From positions 124,001 to 188,000 of the forward strand of contig SVEQ01000002.1 of assembly GCA_015057325.1 (NCBI GenBank): DNA of 64,000 nt, in the 5' to 3' direction. Below the pieces are notes generated by a model that was given only the letters and a program-made list of their open reading frames with translations, was not told the DNA's origin and made no database searches. Shown one piece after another: positions 1-9,041 of the stretch. The DNA comes from Lachnospiraceae bacterium. GTDB lineage: Bacteria > Bacillota > Clostridia > Lachnospirales > Lachnospiraceae. The stretch's first letter is position 1, and every line of letters begins with the position of its first letter. The translations under genes and the position numbers were made by a program.

Positions 1-3000
1 AAGCTTTCGCTGCTTCCGCCATTTGATTTGCTAATATCTCATTTATCCGTTTATATATTCTTTCACCGAGTGGCGATGTCATGAACTTTTCGATGTCATC
101 AACATCCAAATAAGAAACCATAAAATCATCTTCCATTGCATAACAGGTAAGATATTCTCTGGCAAGACTTGTCGCATACTTCAGGTCAACGCCCAGTCCT
201 ATTGTAATACCCCTATTCTCGCCATATGCCACAACCTCGGCAGCCCTTCCTGCTAAGAAAATACGAATGTGTGAAAGGAAATCTTCTTTTCTCCTATGCT
301 CAATTTTAAAATCAACATAACCGCCAAAATTACCACGCGAAACCACTGTAGCATAATCCGGGTAGAACTTCTTACCTGACAAGAATCCCATCAGTGCATG
401 ACCAGCCTCATGATATGTGACTTGCTTGAATTCTTCCGCACCATCACCTGACTTAGTTTCCAGCCCATAATAATATTCCTCAAAACAATCATAGAGGAAA
501 CCATAATCTACTTCTGTACATTTCATAACTGCCTGCGACATAGTATAATTAATGACATTTTCAATCTCTGCCAGACTCTGTCCGCTCATTACCCTGGCAA
601 ACTTCTCTACATCAACATCACTAAGCCCGCTCAAATCATAAGTCAGCTTTTCTTTGGACATTTCGTCAATCTTTTTCTTGATAAATAATGTTCGGCTATT
701 TAATCCCGGTTTTTTGATTAAAATACTATTTCCAAATCTACGCAACAACGCTTCGTCTAAAATACCAGGATCGTAATTAGTCGCAGCGATTACGAATACC
801 GGTCTGGAAGGATCTGTTTCAAATCCATCCATCTCTGTCAAAAGCTGATTAATAATTCTGGCATCACCGTCGTGCCTTATACGGTCTTTTGCAATCACAT
901 CAATCTCATCGATAAATATAATTGATGGTGCATATTTTCTTGCAAGGGAAAATACAGTATGAATATCCTTCACTACTTCATCGCCTGTATGTGAGTGATG
1001 GTTTTCCTCATTTTTTAATAACTCAACACCGGTACAGGATATAAACGGACAGTCAGCCTCATTTGCAAGAGCCTTTGCCAGCAAAGTTTTTCCCGTACCG
1101 GGTGCACCATACATCAAAATACCCCTTGACACCTTTGCACCGCTTTTTCTGAACCAATCCGGTTTCTCTAGAAAAATCTTGAACTTCCGCAATTCATTGA
1201 CAGCCTGTTTGTTTCCAATCACATCGTCAAATGTCACTCCCGGACGGTTTTTGTCATTAATCATAACAACTGCCGCATCTTCACCAAAGTCATTGATCTC
1301 CTGGTAATTACCGATTTCCAGTTCTATAGTATTTATTTCCTTTTGTTCTAGAATATTTGAATTAAATTCAAGTTTTCGGCCTTTCTTTTGAAGACTTTGC
1401 ACTTTTTCCTGCAGGAAACACTCTTTCACAAAAGTGCTTAAGTCATACTCCATCTTTGTCATGGAAATGATATCCTCAATACCATTTTCCAATAACTCCT
1501 TTTTCTCTGAAGCAAGGTAATCTCTTTCAAAGGATACGGCATATACAGGTGGAGTATTAGGTTGTTTTTGAAGCCAGCGGTATATCTGTGCCGGAACGGA
1601 ATCATTTAGCAGAAGGCTTTCATAAACCTCTTTTTCCTGTTGTTTTTGACGTAATTTTCCTCCCACCATATTATAATGAAAATCTATTAATATACCATCG
1701 ATTTGGGTTTCCGGGTCCTTGAGGAGATTCCTGATATTTTTTTCTTGTTCATTTTCTTTTGGTTCGCTTTTTTCAAACTGATGTATATAATAGAGCTTAT
1801 AGGCGGAGTCCTCTGACATCTTTTCAAAAAGTCTGTGCTTATCCCCTTTTCCATCCTTATTCCCACATATGACAATAAAATTCCTCGTTTCCCTTTTATC
1901 TGCTTCCCAGAGATAATTCTTTGCAACATCCCCATCTAATGCTAAAGTCGCCTTTACTTTCTTGATTTTTTCTTTCGCTTTCTCAGACTGCATAAGCCGA
2001 TAAACCGCTTCCATCACAAACTTCTTGCTTCGTTCAGAGGCGATTCGGGCATCTAAACGATTTCCCATGCTGTACAAAAACAGATACGGAAAGGTCTCCT
2101 CATCGTACTCGTATTCAATCTTAAGCTGCCTCTTGACTAATTCTTTTCCTTCTTCGATTCCTTTCTTAACAACCGGTATCAAACTCTTTGCATTTATATG
2201 GTTAAATAAAATGACCTTTCCCTTTTGCAATCTTGAGAGTATTTCCGGTGGTATAATCGGTTTTCCGTCTCCGCCCTTGTCGTTTTTTATGGCATCGATA
2301 ATCGTACTTTCAGGAACGGAAGACAAGTTTTCATCTCTTCTTTCCTCAAAAAACTGCCTTCCTGCATTTGTTGTAAATATACATATCGTATTTGAAAAAT
2401 CGATATTCTCCTCTTCAAAATTATCATACAAAAATCCACCATCAAGAATAGAAAGGAAAATTTGTTTTACCGGATCACAGGCCTTCTCAATTTCATCAAA
2501 AATCAAAACCGCATTAGAATGATCTTGTACGAACCCGGTCAACTCTCCCCTACCGGGCTCTTTCCATGTTTTACCATGACCATATAATTCGTACGCACTG
2601 TATTCTTCAATCGTATATTGGTTCATTTGAAACAGCTTCGATACCTCTCCCATCTGTTCTGCCGCACTTTTTGCAAGATATGTCTTTCCAACCCCAGGAG
2701 GTCCTATTAACAGATAGGTCGCTTTCGGACCCTTTCTTCTTTTGTCAGGTTCTAATTCTTTGTTAGATTCTAATTCTGAATAGAATAGACCAGAAAGAAA
2801 TTCATCCAAGGCAATATCCTGTCCATAAATCTTTTTCGAAAGTTCGCTTCTCATTTCATCAAACTTTTGTTTTATTTCAGCAAACGAAAGTGATTCGTCA
2901 TTTTTATTTTTAAAGTAATTGCTTTTTTGCAGATCGGGATTAATAAAAGAACCAGACACGTTCATAAGTTCATCTCGGTATACACTATTCTCAGTCATTT

Positions 3001-3538
3001 CCCGATACAAGTCGATCAGAGAATGACCACCCTGTTTGATATATTTTTCCATATGTTTGTATGTGATGCTATTCGTTTCACGATTTTCTTTACTTCTTGT
3101 TTCTGCAATGTTTCTGCATTTTACTAAGATCTCATCAAAGCCAATAATATCCATATCATATTTTTCAAAACGTTGTTTCAACTCACGATACTCATCCGAA
3201 GTCTCCCATGCATCAATGGCAGCCTTAACCCAGTCGGAAGCCGATAATTTCGGCTGTAAAAGTTTTGTCTTCCTCATCTCATCGTATATACTAATAAAAC
3301 TTATTAAAATATACCTTGAGTTAAATATAAATTCAAGCAATGCGGTATATAATGCAACTACATTATATCTGCCCACATAAGATCCTGCATAATTGTCACC
3401 CACAACACATAAAAGAATCTCAACCCATGGTTCATTCCGCCGTAATTCTTCAGGTAAGTCCAGCATACTGTACACTTCTTCTTCCTTCGTATGGTCAAAA
3501 TTGTTCGTATTAGGTTCTTTGTAATTCTCTTCTTTCAC
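1..3538 (-). CDS. Giant fusion: ClpB-type AAA+, receiver-like segment, FtsH-type AAA+ and M41 zinc protease (partial)
   Basis: The frame runs off the left edge, so at least 1,179 residues are visible and the C-terminus is missing. In order: a helical N-terminal region (about 1-240) I do not recognise; a ClpA/ClpB-class AAA+ module with Walker A GPPGVGKT at 279-286, Walker B DEIEK at 348-352 and sensor TTNAG; a receiver-like segment (about 553-705) with Asp 619, Ser 669 and Lys 695 at the phospho-acceptor, Thr/Ser and Lys positions but no clear acidic pair; an FtsH-class AAA module with GAPGTGKT at about 810, DEID at 877 and a second-region-of-homology motif ending LLRRFG; and an M41 peptidase with HEAGH at 1043-1047 and the third ligand Asp near 1118. 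No membrane segment is visible, unlike FtsH. Both ATPase sites and the protease look intact, so an energy-dependent soluble protease is inferred. GTG 3538 has GGAGG 8 bases upstream; ATG 3568 is a weaker alternative. It is the last visible gene of a leftward cluster. Confidence 0.9.
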   Translation of the reverse strand, partial: MKEENYKEPNTNNFDHTKEEEVYSMLDLPEELRRNEPWVEILLCVVGDNYAGSYVGRYNVVALYTALLEFIFNSRYILISFISIYDEMRKTKLLQPKLSASDWVKAAIDAWETSDEYRELKQRFEKYDMDIIGFDEILVKCRNIAETRSKENRETNSITYKHMEKYIKQGGHSLIDLYREMTENSVYRDELMNVSGSFINPDLQKSNYFKNKNDESLSFAEIKQKFDEMRSELSKKIYGQDIALDEFLSGLFYSELESNKELEPDKRRKGPKATYLLIGPPGVGKTYLAKSAAEQMGEVSKLFQMNQYTIEEYSAYELYGHGKTWKEPGRGELTGFVQDHSNAVLIFDEIEKACDPVKQIFLSILDGGFLYDNFEEENIDFSNTICIFTTNAGRQFFEERRDENLSSVPESTIIDAIKNDKGGDGKPIIPPEILSRLQKGKVILFNHINAKSLIPVVKKGIEEGKELVKRQLKIEYEYDEETFPYLFLYSMGNRLDARIASERSKKFVMEAVYRLMQSEKAKEKIKKVKATLALDGDVAKNYLWEADKRETRNFIVICGNKDGKGDKHRLFEKMSEDSAYKLYYIHQFEKSEPKENEQEKNIRNLLKDPETQIDGILIDFHYNMVGGKLRQKQQEKEVYESLLLNDSVPAQIYRWLQKQPNTPPVYAVSFERDYLASEKKELLENGIEDIISMTKMEYDLSTFVKECFLQEKVQSLQKKGRKLEFNSNILEQKEINTIELEIGNYQEINDFGEDAAVVMINDKNRPGVTFDDVIGNKQAVNELRKFKIFLEKPDWFRKSGAKVSRGILMYGAPGTGKTLLAKALANEADCPFISCTGVELLKNEENHHSHTGDEVVKDIHTVFSLARKYAPSIIFIDEIDVIAKDRIRHDGDARIINQLLTEMDGFETDPSRPVFVIAATNYDPGILDEALLRRFGNSILIKKPGLNSRTLFIKKKIDEMSKEKLTYDLSGLSDVDVEKFARVMSGQSLAEIENVINYTMSQAVMKCTEVDYGFLYDCFEEYYYGLETKSGDGAEEFKQVTYHEAGHALMGFLSGKKFYPDYATVVSRGNFGGYVDFKIEHRRKEDFLSHIRIFLAGRAAEVVAYGENRGITIGLGVDLKYATSLAREYLTCYAMEDDFMVSYLDVDDIEKFMTSPLGERIYKRINEILANQMAEAAKA

Positions 3539-3604
3539 ACTATGTACCTCCGAAATTTTTGGTATCATCAATCCTTTTGCAACACTTTTCTTGATTTCAT
3601 CAAC

Positions 3605-3964
3605 TTATGGCTTTGGATATTCAGCCAGTAATTGTCCGACAAAAGTAGAAATTGCAACAGTATCATATCCTATAATATTATCAGCCTTCTTATCTCTATA
3701 GATATCGGTAAGATCACTCAAATTCAAGTCCCAACTACATTCTTGCAGCAATTCTCTAAGTCTGTTTGCGGCAAACCATTTTTCTCGTGGTTCCGCGTCC
3801 TTTGTACGTATTATAAGGATAGTTTCTTCCATTAACTGTGCGATATGCCATAACGGAACTCCCCATGATTCCTGCGGTTTATCGCTTATATCACCCACTA
3901 ACCACTTTTCTTGTGATTCATCCGCATCCGAAATATACCACCTATCATGTTTCTTTCTATTCAA
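3605..3964 (-). CDS. Hypothetical protein upstream of the AAA+/M41 gene
   Basis: Small acidic protein of about 119 residues, rich in Trp (WYISD, KWLVGD, SWGVPLW, REKWFA), with no signal peptide or membrane segment and no family I recognise. I start it at TTG 3964 because a GAGGGGG motif lies 7 bases upstream; ATG 3991 in the same frame has no ribosome-binding site. Its TAA stop is followed in the same frame by 11 sense codons that run into the possible ATG 3568 of the AAA+/M41 gene, so the two genes are almost certainly co-transcribed. The position suggests an adaptor, substrate or regulator of the protease; this is inference only. Confidence 0.65.
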   Translation of the reverse strand: MNRKKHDRWYISDADESQEKWLVGDISDKPQESWGVPLWHIAQLMEETILIIRTKDAEPREKWFAANRLRELLQECSWDLNLSDLTDIYRDKKADNIIGYDTVAISTFVGQLLAEYPKP

Positions 3965-4080
3965 TGTTAATCCCCCTCGTTTACTTTTCATACATTAAAA
4001 TCGTCCTATTTTTCCACTCTTTACTTATTCATCCATTTCGCTTGCTTTGTGTTTACCTTCGCGAACAATATATCATTCAT

Positions 4081-4230
4081 CTATATTGTTTTATCCCAAC
4101 GTAACACTTCTTTGGCTTTGGGATCAATCACAAGTCGAAATGTGTCTCCGTCAATTGTATGTTTATGACAATCTAATACAATTGGGTACTTCTCAATAAC
4201 CTTAATAAATTTCCTGATGACATGAGTCCA
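4081..4230 (-). other. Protein-like open frame overlapping the 3' end of the preceding gene, no start codon
   Basis: After the TAA at 4231-4233 this frame is open for 49 codons and ends at TAG 4081-4083. It reads like protein (for example KVIEKYPIVLD, DGDTFRLVIDPKA, EVLRWDKTI) but has no ATG, GTG or TTG near its beginning. It lies in a different frame from the 4202-4582 gene and overlaps its end. It may be the remnant of a decayed small gene, or a C-terminal extension reached by frameshifting. It fills most of the otherwise empty gap between 3992 and 4201. Confidence 0.3.
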
Positions 4231-4582
4231 TTAAAATTTCCCAACTGGTTGCATTAGGATCTTCTTTAGGAACGCTAGTGAGATTTTTAATAATATCTTC
4301 ATTGCACTGTCTAGGGATAAATATTATTCCGGTTTTCATAGAAAGAACCAAATAGGAACTTTTATTTTTCTCAAGTTGTGTCTTGAGTACATTTGTCATA
4401 TTAATACCTGGGCCTGTATACACAAGAAGGTTATTTGTCTCTTGAAACTGCGATTTAATTTCATTTCGTACATATTGAATACCGTCCTCATTATAATCAG
4501 CGCCATCTCGTGTCACTATAAATACAGGACTAGCATTTTTTACGTTTTTATCCATTGGACGCATTCTTAATAATTCAGTCAT
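4202..4582 (-). CDS. Unknown 126-residue protein with a second, broken copy at 7490-7870
   Basis: Soluble 126-residue protein of no family I recognise. Its opening TELLRMRPM, the segment PVFIVTRDGADY, the motif VYTGPGIN and the segment SWEILM recur in the same order in the pseudogene at 7490-7870, which has the same length of 126 codons. This shows a small paralogous family. The alternation of hydrophobic strands (FIVT, LLVYTGP, YLVLS, GIIFIP) and helices suggests a compact alpha/beta fold. The start overlaps the stop of the 26-codon frame at 4575-4655 by 8 bases, so translation is probably coupled. An AAAGGAGA ribosome-binding site precedes the ATG. It belongs to the AAA+/M41 operon. Confidence 0.75.
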   Translation of the reverse strand: MTELLRMRPMDKNVKNASPVFIVTRDGADYNEDGIQYVRNEIKSQFQETNNLLVYTGPGINMTNVLKTQLEKNKSSYLVLSMKTGIIFIPRQCNEDIIKNLTSVPKEDPNATSWEILMDSCHQEIY

Positions 4583-4655
4583 ATTGATTCTCCTTTAAAA
4601 TACTTATAATCTGACGATGTTTGATTGGATCATCGTCAACATTCAACACTCTCAT
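4575..4655 (-). CDS. 26-residue peptide resembling the N-terminus of a response-regulator receiver
   Basis: The frame begins at ATG 4655 with AAAAGGAG well placed upstream and ends at TGA 4575-4577. The peptide opens MRVLNVDDDPIKHRQIISIL, which matches beta-1, the acidic pair and alpha-1 of receiver domains, then stops where beta-2 should begin. It overlaps the next gene by 8 bases (ATGACTGA). It could be a leader peptide coupling translation, or the stump of a truncated receiver. The large AAA+/M41 protein carries a receiver-like segment without an obvious acidic pair, so a split arrangement is conceivable but untested. Confidence 0.4.
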   Translation of the reverse strand: MRVLNVDDDPIKHRQIISILKENQYD

Positions 4656-4670
4656 TTATTATTTCTCCTT

Positions 4671-5252
4671 TTAATTTGATATTTCTTTATTATATTTAAA
4701 CAATTGTTTTATCATATATTTGTTTTTGGCAATAAAATATGCAACTCTCCGAAGATTTTCAAAAGTATTCGGATCAATCATTTCAGAAATATGGATTTCA
4801 CAGCTATATTTACGTTTATATTTACCTCTAGTGTATTTCTTATCCAAATCATAATAGATAGCTGGCATTCCCTTGATTTCCACATATAAACGTTGGTCAT
4901 TCCATAGTTTTAAGGACACTTTGTCAAATCCATACTTTTTAAACTCATTCAAAAGGGCATCCGTTAATGAAATAGGTTCTCCATCAATTTCCCAATCTAC
5001 CAATTCAAGTGACCCATGTTGTTCAATCACTTGTGCCTTAAAATCCTCTTTTGTTTCAACAACCGGAAGTTCCAAATTTTTTTCATTTAAAAACATTTTG
5101 TATTCTTCCTCTGAAGAGCACTTCTTATATTTCTCTTTCCTTTGTTGAATGTCCTTCATTGCCTTATTAGCCAAATTCCAATCCGTATAAATCCCCCTCG
5201 GCATAAACTCTTCTCCAAAAAGTATATAATAGTTCTTTGATTTTTTATTCAT
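4671..5252 (-). CDS. Protein with an RNase H1 N-terminal (hybrid-binding, viroplasmin-like) domain and unknown C-terminus
   Basis: 193 residues, first gene of the AAA+/M41 operon. Residues 7-60 fit the RNase H1 N-terminal/caulimovirus VI domain: an opening YYILFG strand, the typical GIYTDW turn, a lysine-rich helix and a closing SSEEEYKMFL helix. In RNase H1 this domain binds RNA:DNA hybrid or double-stranded RNA. The remaining 130 residues contain no RNase H catalytic Asp/Glu set that I can see, so this is not RNase H. The C-terminus is basic (KKYTRGKYKRKYS). The start has GGAG upstream (AAGGAGTGAAGCG-ATG). A nucleic-acid-sensing role in the operon is inference. Confidence 0.7.
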   Translation of the reverse strand: MNKKSKNYYILFGEEFMPRGIYTDWNLANKAMKDIQQRKEKYKKCSSEEEYKMFLNEKNLELPVVETKEDFKAQVIEQHGSLELVDWEIDGEPISLTDALLNEFKKYGFDKVSLKLWNDQRLYVEIKGMPAIYYDLDKKYTRGKYKRKYSCEIHISEMIDPNTFENLRRVAYFIAKNKYMIKQLFKYNKEISN

Positions 5253-5457: not shown

Positions 5458-6204
5458 TCAAATACATTTTTCCAACAAACCGATTGCCGTTGCTATATCT
5501 TCTTTTATCCGCTTATATCCGTCAGTCTTATTAAGTCTGTGATCCATATATAGCCTTCGGTTGAGCTCGATTATCACGGAACTGACACGCCTGTCACTCC
5601 GGTAATACTTGATTGGAACAATACATCCGGCAAAAGGTCTGTTGAGCTCTACCGAATATCCTCTCTGCCTGAAATATCCGCAGAGTTCTTCCTCAACCTG
5701 CCCCGGTGTATGATACTCATCAGTTCCTATACAGATATCCGGACGGTTATAGTCCTGATCAAATTCATACGGAAGCGGTTCGTCATAAAATGAATAACCG
5801 TCAACAATAAGACATTTTCCATATCTTTTCAATTTCTCCGCCACTTCAGTTTCAAAACGTTTATGATACCTGTCATAATACCGGACAAGCAAGCTCTCCT
5901 TATGCCTAGAAGAGATTGACTTAAGTTCGCTGCCATCTGAACAGGACGTGTAGATTGCTCCCATGCCTATGGAAACCATGACCTCCTTTGAATCATCCCT
6001 AAAACGTTCAGGATCACATACAAGTCTTGATACATGAAATCGAAGCATCCTGTCCCCGGTATCGTACAGATTATCGCAATAATGATCCGTCATTACATTG
6101 AGTTCATGTACAATGTCCTGTGTGGTGAAATACTTCATTTCTTCTAATGGTATGTACGTCGCTGAATGCGGTACATTAATAAGAATGGGATTGTTCTTTT
6201 GCAT
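5458..6204 (-). CDS. N-formylglutamate amidohydrolase-family protein under SAM riboswitch
   Basis: 248 residues matching the N-formylglutamate amidohydrolase (FGase) family: NVPHSATYIP at the N-terminus, a CDPERF motif, the central DGYSF segment and a late SVIIELNRRLY strand. The family hydrolyses N-formyl-glutamate and related N-acyl amino acids with a metal-type active site. No histidine-utilisation genes are nearby. A SAM-I riboswitch and hairpin terminator lie directly upstream, so expression should rise when methionine/SAM is scarce; that suggests an N-formyl- or N-acyl-methionine substrate rather than formylglutamate (inference). Start ATG 6204 has AAGGAG 7 bases upstream. Confidence 0.8.
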   Translation of the reverse strand: MQKNNPILINVPHSATYIPLEEMKYFTTQDIVHELNVMTDHYCDNLYDTGDRMLRFHVSRLVCDPERFRDDSKEVMVSIGMGAIYTSCSDGSELKSISSRHKESLLVRYYDRYHKRFETEVAEKLKRYGKCLIVDGYSFYDEPLPYEFDQDYNRPDICIGTDEYHTPGQVEEELCGYFRQRGYSVELNRPFAGCIVPIKYYRSDRRVSSVIIELNRRLYMDHRLNKTDGYKRIKEDIATAIGLLEKCI

Positions 6205-7489: not shown

Positions 7490-7870
7490 TCAATATGGTT
7501 CTTGATTAATCATCATCATCAAAATTGCCCAAGAGTTTTCTTTGGGATTTTGGTCATAAACTTTTATCAGGTTATCAACGATCTGTTGATTACATTCTTT
7601 TGGGAAAAACATTATGCCCTTGTCGTATGACAAAACACAATAAGCATCTGGGTGTTTTTCAAGCTATGCTTTTAGCACCTTTAAATAGTTAAGACCGGGA
7701 CCGGTATACGCAACAAGGTCATTTTTCTCTTGGAATATTTCTTTGATTTTATCTTCCACATAACAAAGACCCTTATCAGTATAATCGCTTCCGTTACGTG
7801 TCACGATGTATACAGTAGTTGCTTTTCTTGGGTTGTCACCCATTGGGTGCATTCTCAATAATTCGATCAT
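7490..7870 (-). pseudogene. Paralog of the 4202-4582 gene interrupted by one TAG
   Basis: Reading the minus strand from ATG 7870 gives 126 sense-length codons to TGA 7490-7492, the same length as the intact paralog. The frame is broken only by TAG at 7664-7666. Aligned segments include IELLRMHPM, VYIVTRNGSDY, AYTGPGLN, LEKHPDAY and NSWAILM. In the intact copy the interrupted position is Gln (LKTQLEK versus LKA-stop-LEK), so one CAG-to-TAG change explains it. The rest is free of frameshifts, which implies recent inactivation or partial readthrough. A truncated 68-residue product would lack the C-terminal half. Its own terminator remains. Confidence 0.8.
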
Positions 7871-8467: not shown

Positions 8468-8791
8468 TCAGAAATTTCTGTCTCTATCTTGTCTGTTGTA
8501 TAAAAATCTTCTTACTTCCATAATTTTTCTATCATCCATGTGTATGACAACATAGTAAACAGTGAAATTCTTTACATAAATCCTATAATAAGGATACTCT
8601 CGCTCTTTTACTGAATGATACGGCTCAAAGCTCTCACAATTTGGAAGTCTATCCAATATAGCCTTTTCTACAACATCAATCAGATCATCTGCCGCTTCCG
8701 GATTAAAAAGCTTCTCTCTGATATAAGTAACTTTTTCGTACATATCTTCATAAAAAAGAGGCAGATACCTTAACTCATATTCATTTTCCAT
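8468..8791 (-). CDS. RelE/ParE-superfamily toxin
   Basis: 107 residues from ATG 8791, which has GAGGA 7 bases upstream and overlaps the antitoxin stop by 11 bases. The fold pattern is RelE/ParE: an N-terminal [15 protein letters not shown] strand-helix, a central helix, then the strands [15 protein letters not shown] and a C-terminal RRFLYNRQD close to the usual R-x-L-Y ending of active family members. RelE toxins cleave mRNA on the ribosome, ParE toxins poison gyrase; I cannot separate the two here, though the spacing and partner fit RelE/YoeB types. A longer upstream frame to 8914 overlaps the antitoxin and is not the real start. Confidence 0.85.
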
Positions 8792-9041
8792 TGGCAGTTC
8801 CTCGGAGTTTTGAAAACATCTCTTCATGTGTATATCTCTCATCTGTTTCTTTAGCCTGTCTGTCAGCGACATCCAAAGCATACTCAATATCATCTGTAAG
8901 TCTCGAATACGCATCTAAACTAAGAACAACCATTGAACCATAACCATTTTTTGTAAGATATACGGGCTGTCCCGTCTTAACAACATCCTCAATATCTGTA
9001 AACTTATTTCTCAAATCTGAAACCGGTCTAATCTGAATCAT
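8781..9041 (-). CDS. Phd/YefM-family antitoxin
   Basis: 86 residues. The N-terminus (IRPVSDLRNKFTDIEDVVKTGQ) followed by PVYLTKNGYG and MVVLSLDAY is the Phd/YefM DNA-binding signature; the C-terminal part, rich in charged residues, would wrap around the toxin. It precedes and overlaps the toxin gene by 11 bases, the usual antitoxin-first layout, and probably represses its own promoter. GGAG lies 6-8 bases before ATG 9041. Confidence 0.88.
   Translation of the reverse strand: MIQIRPVSDLRNKFTDIEDVVKTGQPVYLTKNGYGSMVVLSLDAYSRLTDDIEYALDVADRQAKETDERYTHEEMFSKLRGTANGK

Follow-up and report, generated by a model that had tools for sequence, protein, structure and literature searches.

Cytosolic proteases of the Clp type keep motor and protease (ClpP) in separate proteins, and proteases of the M41 family are known as membrane enzymes of the FtsH type. 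Here we describe a gene that joins elements of both in a single frame. It lies at the start of a 64,000-nucleotide stretch of DNA from a Lachnospiraceae bacterium (assembly GCA_015057325.1, contig SVEQ01000002.1, positions 124,001 to 188,000), which we refer to as the window. Its product, hereafter A, contains a Clp-like motor, a receiver-like domain, an FtsH-type motor and an M41 zinc protease. We propose that A and its relatives are self-contained cytosolic ATP-dependent proteases whose targeting modules can be exchanged and, in the window's branch, direct them to RNA:DNA hybrids, and we put the probability of this reading at roughly 0.46. No description of the fusion was found in the open-licence PMC literature, and as far as we could find in the open literature, no M41 enzyme of this soluble, two-motor layout has been described before.

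Other described systems share individual features with the fusion. The FtsH ternary system (Kaur et al. 2020, PMC7159879) has two FtsH-type AAA domains, the first of them inactive, encoded beside MoxR and vWA genes. It resembles the fusion in placing FtsH-type AAA domains in a presumed conflict setting, but the term M41 does not occur in the available part of its text, and its partners are other than those seen here. No MoxR or vWA genes were recognized at the fusion loci, in lists of open reading frames (ORFs) read by eye and in the subset of neighbors scanned with Pfam. BrxL of BREX, as presented in the accessible part of its description, combines an MCM-type motor with a Lon-type domain without the catalytic dyad (PMC12839542). 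Like the fusion, it links an AAA+ motor and a protease-type domain in one protein and belongs to a nucleic-acid setting, but the protease described here is a zinc enzyme with intact ligands. Lastly, RssB is a response-regulator adaptor for ClpXP, according to the available part of its source (PMC7226468).

Two different AAA+ motors and a zinc protease in one chain

The fusion gene occupies window positions 1 to 3571 on the minus strand. Its frame, from 3571 to 2, runs through 1190 codons without a stop and exits the window start; the gene overshoots that edge by 113 bases, to C9:123888 in the genome, and encodes 1227 residues counted from the first TTG at 3571. Judged by its position eight bases behind a GGAGG, a GTG at 3538 is the likelier start. 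A preliminary description of this DNA, made from the letters alone, had placed the fusion gene within positions 1 to 5252; the frame is real, but the gene is cut by the window edge.

In protein A the domains follow one another in the order AAA_2 motor, receiver-like domain, FtsH-type AAA motor and M41 protease. The first motor (2225 to 2728, minus strand; residues 282-449) is of the Clp D2-like AAA_2 type (Pfam PF07724, E=9.5e-28), and by motif reading it has the Walker A GPPGVGKT, the Walker B VLIFDEIE and an SR finger. The second (716 to 1120, minus strand; residues 818-952) is an FtsH-type motor (PF00004, E=9.7e-46) with Walker A and B intact and without the aromatic pore-loop residue. The M41 domain (80 to 436, minus strand; residues 1046-1164; PF01434, Peptidase_M41, E=2.6e-17) retains an intact zinc site, with HEAGH at 398-412 and the codon of the third Asp ligand at 185-187. 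Each of the three domains scores over its Pfam cut-off, and together with the Walker A and B pairs, intact in both motors, this bears out the preliminary reading of one frame with two different AAA+ motors and an intact M41 protease. That description had also seen no membrane segment. We agree that A has no clear one, judging by hydropathy alone, because its highest 19-residue hydropathy mean is 1.52.

A structure search ranks NSF and p97 highest, both of which have two motors. The likeness to FtsH lies in the AAA motor followed by M41, the part of A that aligns to FtsH structures such as 4ww0, 2dhr and 2ce7. A differs from FtsH in its extra AAA_2 motor and receiver-like domain and in having no clear membrane segment, and the fusions form a separate clade: a tree built on the AAA-M41 part places 16 of them and 7 FtsH sequences on opposite sides of a 100/100 branch. 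Against NCBIfam TIGR01241 A scores 259 bits, where the cut-off is 600. The likeness to ClpA, ClpB and ClpC comes from the D2 (AAA_2) type of the first motor and from a Clp_N-like start in three members of the family. Unlike these proteins, the fusion is without a D1 motor, one of its motors being AAA_2 and the other FtsH-type, and it carries the protease in the same chain; A scores 109 bits for ClpA and 81 bits for ClpB, against cut-offs of 993 and 1232.

A receiver-like domain between the motors

The segment between the motors measures 121-168 residues. In A, it holds a degenerate domain of the (beta-alpha)5 type at 1388 to 1891 on the minus strand. When a profile of the segment was aligned to four receivers, hhalign returned Prob 68.5% (E=4.6e-5), compared with 0.1% and 0.2% for two unrelated control sets. 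A PDB profile search with the same segment gave 22 matches at E<=1, all weak, of which the top five are receivers (E 0.008-0.095) and the rest are mixed. The single-sequence AlphaFold2 model of the domain is poor (predicted local distance difference test score 52, predicted template modeling score 0.51), yet the strand-helix alternation of a receiver is visible in it. These profile and model data suggest that the domain is probably receiver-like and degenerate; where the preliminary description spoke of a receiver domain, the profiles uphold the likeness, and the domain is receiver-like only. Separately, stand-alone receivers of 127 aa lie near the window locus (L009:6934-7317) and beside B, the second fusion gene of the same genome (L010:12309-12692). 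We regard these as candidate protease adaptors.

Distribution and conservation of the fusion family

The fusion is not confined to one strain, a question that the preliminary description had raised: the family comprises 21 genes in 20 genomes. The genome samples searched overlap, and the window's own genome is present in all of them except those of the families of G716 and G917. Members occur in 6 of 397 genomes of the window's own family (a seventh match is ClpC), in 4 of 26 of its genus, in 6 of 115 of the family of G716 and in 1 of 2 of the family of G917, as well as in 3 of 398 genomes of the phylum and 3 of 238 of the order. At class level the search threshold is passed by 382 of 391 genomes, since ClpB and ClpC match as well; counted only at 251 bits or more, at least 3 of the 391 (G000, G716 and G743) carry a member. 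L028 (G355), first counted as a family match, is an ordinary ClpC and was dropped, as was a single-protein scan of the genome contigs, which returned only ordinary ClpC/Lon loci (L019-L022).

We read 20 of the genes, all but L154 (G1269). Three members, L144, L179 and L154, end at contig ends and are without the protease region; in the members that have it, HExGH and the third Asp are intact throughout (18/18). Hydropathy maxima across 19 members, taken as 19-residue means, range from 1.01 to 1.72, with L178 (1.72), L027 (1.67) and L145 (1.60) borderline. The nearest relative of A is L157, at 81% core identity, and L155 and L156 are practically identical. The second fusion gene of the window's genome, B, lies on C12 (locus L010) and shares a core identity of only 32% with A, so that two old branches are present in one genome. 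Ratios of nonsynonymous to synonymous substitution rates (dN/dS) are 0.24 for A vs L157, 0.12 for B vs L023 (dS 1.8, near saturation) and 0.05 for L159 vs L160, from which the family is under purifying selection.

Some members depart from this layout. B (L010:7550-12289) and L023 (L023:10127-14968) have tandem FtsH-type motors, for a total of three motors and a protease in one chain. In the member at L145:7573-10458, the second motor has degraded Walker motifs and HEAGH is kept; it is a possible regulatory subunit.

We considered whether the fusion might be a remodeling machine that no longer degrades its substrates, or simply a decaying gene. The degraded second motor of L145, the loss of the pore-loop aromatic from half of the aligned members, the broken copy of a partner gene beside B and the gene remnants near the window (below) could all be understood in this way. 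Intact zinc ligands in every member with the region, dN/dS values of 0.05-0.24 and intact Walker sites in both motors of A point in the opposite direction, and we consider decay or loss of proteolysis very improbable.

RNase H1 parts in the proteases and beside them

The hybrid-binding domain of RNase H1 stands at the N-terminal start of 6 of 20 fusions. Pfam Cauli_VI is over cut-off in B, L023, L024, L155 and L157, and L156 was found by profile. A profile of six hybrid-binding domains, five from fusions and one from a 224-aa partner of L023, matches exactly three PDB sequences, all of them RNase H1 and including human 3bsu. Across the 397 genomes of the window's family we found 119 Cauli_VI places at E<=1e-6, in 108 genomes; only three sit in frames longer than 600 aa, and all three are these fusion proteases.

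The most complete arrangement is that of L157, whose chain opens with the hybrid-binding domain and closes, past the protease, with a complete RNase HI (Pfam 1.4e-36; best PDB match 4e-37). Its catalytic D-E-D-D aligns with that of ordinary RNase HI, and the residues were aligned also in L023 and L155. L157 thus resembles RNase H1 in having both parts in one chain, and differs from it in that about 1,300 residues of motors and protease separate them; L023 has a gene of this kind beside its protease, and A's chain has neither part. That neighbor, directly behind the L023 protease, is a 254-aa gene combining a hybrid-binding domain with RNase H (27.6 bits, cut-off 25.8). A 416-aa homologue of it (38% identity, E=5e-29), for which Pfam itself gives no RNase H call, lies in front of L155/L156. 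Counting L155/L156 once, RNase H is paired with the protease at three loci. The RNase HI of L157 is 35% identical to ordinary RNase HI over 150 residues and barely matches the L023 type (E=0.002), which suggests that the pairing probably arose twice. The window's own genome has one RNase_H place by Pfam, away from the window locus. Two neighbors in this genome were tried as further RNase H candidates through forced alignment of residues, a 349-aa neighbor of B and a 507-aa gene about 6 kb from A (PF13456 at 19.2 bits, below cut-off); both are suggestive and neither was counted.

In the window, three small genes precede the protease gene on the minus strand. The nearest, a 128-aa gene at 3605 to 3991, ends 33 bases before the protease TTG. 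Its family recurs as a domain within the chains of the L155/L156 proteases, where a profile made with L155 excluded detects it at 81.7 bits (E=6e-25) in L155 and at 81.4 bits in L156. Further occurrences are a gene directly behind L157, a gene before L023 that also carries a hybrid-binding domain by fusion, and a broken copy next to B; a six-frame search places the family at 6 of 20 loci. Searched against PDB, the family returned nothing beyond a marginal match to the 30-kDa subunit of a viral RNA polymerase (E=0.018), a lead only, which we did not use. The second gene, of 126 aa (4202 to 4582), has no Pfam match and its family is unassigned by Pfam; it is 54% identical over 68 residues to a truncated copy at window 7664-7870 (blastp E=6e-27). 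The third, of 193 aa (4671 to 5252), contains a hybrid-binding-like stretch at 5103-5198 with a sub-threshold Cauli_VI match; at E<=1 the entire genome has just two other Cauli_VI places. Against our own hybrid-binding profile the protein reaches E=0.15 among 317 proteins, below significance, and a PDB search with it yielded no useful match. The 126-aa and 193-aa genes are absent from the other loci in the six-frame search of 20 loci. As for conserved partner genes, which the preliminary description had made the touchstone of a system, the 128-aa gene qualifies and these two do not. Its link between nucleic-acid sensing and proteolysis finds backing in the relatives, through the fused hybrid-binding domains and the one whole RNase HI, rather than in the window alone.

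A modular protease possibly addressed by RNA:DNA hybrids

In other branches different modules take the place of the RNase H1 parts. At 5 of 20 loci (L025, L158, L159, L160 and L161) the gene immediately upstream is of the YbjN type and exceeds the Pfam cut-off; L025 has two YbjN-type genes, one of them scanned with Pfam, and L139 is a marginal case. In L144, L178 and L179 the chain begins with a Clp_N-like stretch (hhalign Prob 51.8%, controls 1.1% and 0.2%), for which the Pfam match to Clp_N is below cut-off in L144 and L179 and missing in L178. At L026, L027, L140 and L145 we saw no hybrid-binding, YbjN-type or Clp_N-like module. The core is thus the same throughout, and what changes from branch to branch is the delivery part.

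By analogy with FtsH and Clp, the fusion could assemble into stacked hexameric rings, in which the Clp-type motors form one layer, the FtsH-type motors a second and the zinc proteases a third, and the receiver-like domain between the motors may serve as a docking or regulatory site. Substrate choice would be set by the exchangeable modules, at the chain ends or in neighboring genes, and in the window's branch the module would consist of the two parts of RNase H1, its hybrid-binding domain and an RNase H, carried in the protease chain or beside it. Brought in this way to RNA:DNA hybrids, such as R-loops, primers or reverse-transcription intermediates, the machine might unfold, at the cost of ATP, and degrade proteins stuck there, while RNase H would remove the RNA of the hybrid. 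For the window copy, in whose chain the RNase-H1 parts are absent, the 193-aa and 128-aa genes are likely to encode the adaptors. More specifically, we tentatively suggest, as something rather less than an even bet, that this is an RNase H1 whose halves flank or accompany a double-motor zinc protease, that hybrids mark the proteins bound to them for destruction, and that the core is a modular platform for swapped address modules. If the RNase H link is functional, the result would be a protease aimed by the RNA:DNA hybrid, joining R-loop removal with regulated proteolysis. L157 has every part in one chain, which makes the idea directly testable.

Several observations weigh against this proposal. 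Neither a hybrid-binding domain nor an RNase H is present in the window chain, 14 of 20 members are without a fused hybrid-binding domain, and the RNase HI fusion is known from one genome, which is 77% complete. The preliminary description had seen an RNase H1-N-like domain in a partner, and although the stretch in the 193-aa protein is rare in this genome, its Cauli_VI match amounts to 13.6 bits (15.2 in the genome scan), below the curated cut-off of 21. The human domain has two adjacent lysines, which we take to contact the hybrid, and this pair is missing from every one of the five distinct hybrid-binding domains found in fusions. At the same position the partner proteins have RR or RK (L023) and KK (the window's 193-aa protein), so that hybrid binding may be the task of the partners, or else the ligand of the fused domains may be something different. 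The aromatic pore-loop residue of AAA motors has a role in translocation, and it is gone from the FtsH-type motor in 9 of 18 aligned members, A among them. This weakens the claim that both rings translocate, and the first motor may do the pulling. Finally, no role for nucleic acid is required in the branches that have YbjN-type or Clp_N-like modules.

A rival reading is that of a general cytosolic protease for regulation or quality control, acting on misfolded or tagged proteins, whose modules would be ordinary adaptors and whose pairing with RNase H would be incidental or local. Such a protease would account for the YbjN-type partners directly upstream and for the Clp_N-like N-termini, the stand-alone receivers have a precedent in the adaptor RssB of ClpXP (PMC7226468, in its available part), and the missing lysines of the fused domains agree with it. 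It leaves unexplained, however, why RNase H is paired with the protease in two separate branches, in one of them as an RNase HI in the same chain, and the patchy spread of the fusion, with 4 of 26 genomes in its own genus, is unlike that of a core quality-control factor. On this evidence we think a general quality-control role somewhat unlikely.

Genomic neighborhood and the question of defense

Directly behind gene A, at L009:11561-15740, we found genes for two methylases (an EcoRI-type adenine enzyme and a C5 enzyme), for a NOV_C protein that PADLOC matches in part to TmtA, and for a 318-aa protein; these genes are a possible restriction-type system. Further along the window locus, past a transposase, lies a TIR protein with weak zinc-ribbon matches. 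Adjoining it is a protein with a guanylate/adenylate cyclase domain and a weak receiver match (L009:1774-3837). A 217-aa neighbor (L009:5930-6583) looked JAB-like by eye and was set aside without Pfam support. Among the other family members, L027 is flanked by GajB/UvrD-like and DpdJ/Mko-like helicases.

PADLOC was run on neighbors at the window locus (8 proteins), at B (2) and at L027 (7), and it returned matches at the window locus and L027 and none for the two at B. With the fusion as query, PADLOC returned AAA proteins from several systems, best IetA at 8.5e-38, matched in the motor regions only, and no PADLOC model covers the whole protein. At the other loci the neighbors are mostly housekeeping genes, as judged by eye from ORF lists rather than by a defense scan. 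Among the 703 plasmid and 113 phage records with a match, none covers 80% of the L023 core. Among the matches listed for 80 kept viral-contig loci there is no frame of at least 500 aa with HExGH and two Walker A motifs, which is weak evidence of absence because the scan was driven by Walker motifs and covers these loci only.

An anti-phage or anti-mobile-element system, in which infection makes RNA:DNA hybrids and the activated protease destroys phage or host proteins, would agree with the patchy occurrence across genome samples, with two distant copies and decayed remnants in one genome, and with the methylases, NOV_C and TIR proteins behind A and the helicases beside L027. The housekeeping surroundings of most other loci, the restriction of PADLOC matches to the motors, and the absence of the fusion from plasmids and phages at 80% coverage and from the kept viral-contig loci tell against it, and we judge it unlikely. 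The preliminary description had proposed a conflict or defense system; the neighbor matches give this some footing, the matches of the fusion itself do not bear it out, and a defense role stays possible.

The remnants lie on both sides of the window edge. Outside the window, on C9 of the genome, are a remnant of a further AAA_2 motor (L009:7879-8139) and a 51-residue remnant of a 128-type gene (L009:6792-6944), and within it is a remnant of the 126-aa gene, at 7493-7870. These are vestiges of additional copies of the system that have decayed within a single genome. Also in the window, overlapping frames at 8468-9041 encode a Phd/YefM antitoxin, which passes its cut-off, and a ParE-like toxin, which does not. 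The toxin-antitoxin pair and the truncated copies by which the preliminary description had called this neighborhood accessory are thus present. A gene of the N-formylglutamate amidohydrolase type, at window 5458-6204, occurs in the window's own genome only among the 26 of the genus, and the stretch next to the system is therefore also accessory.

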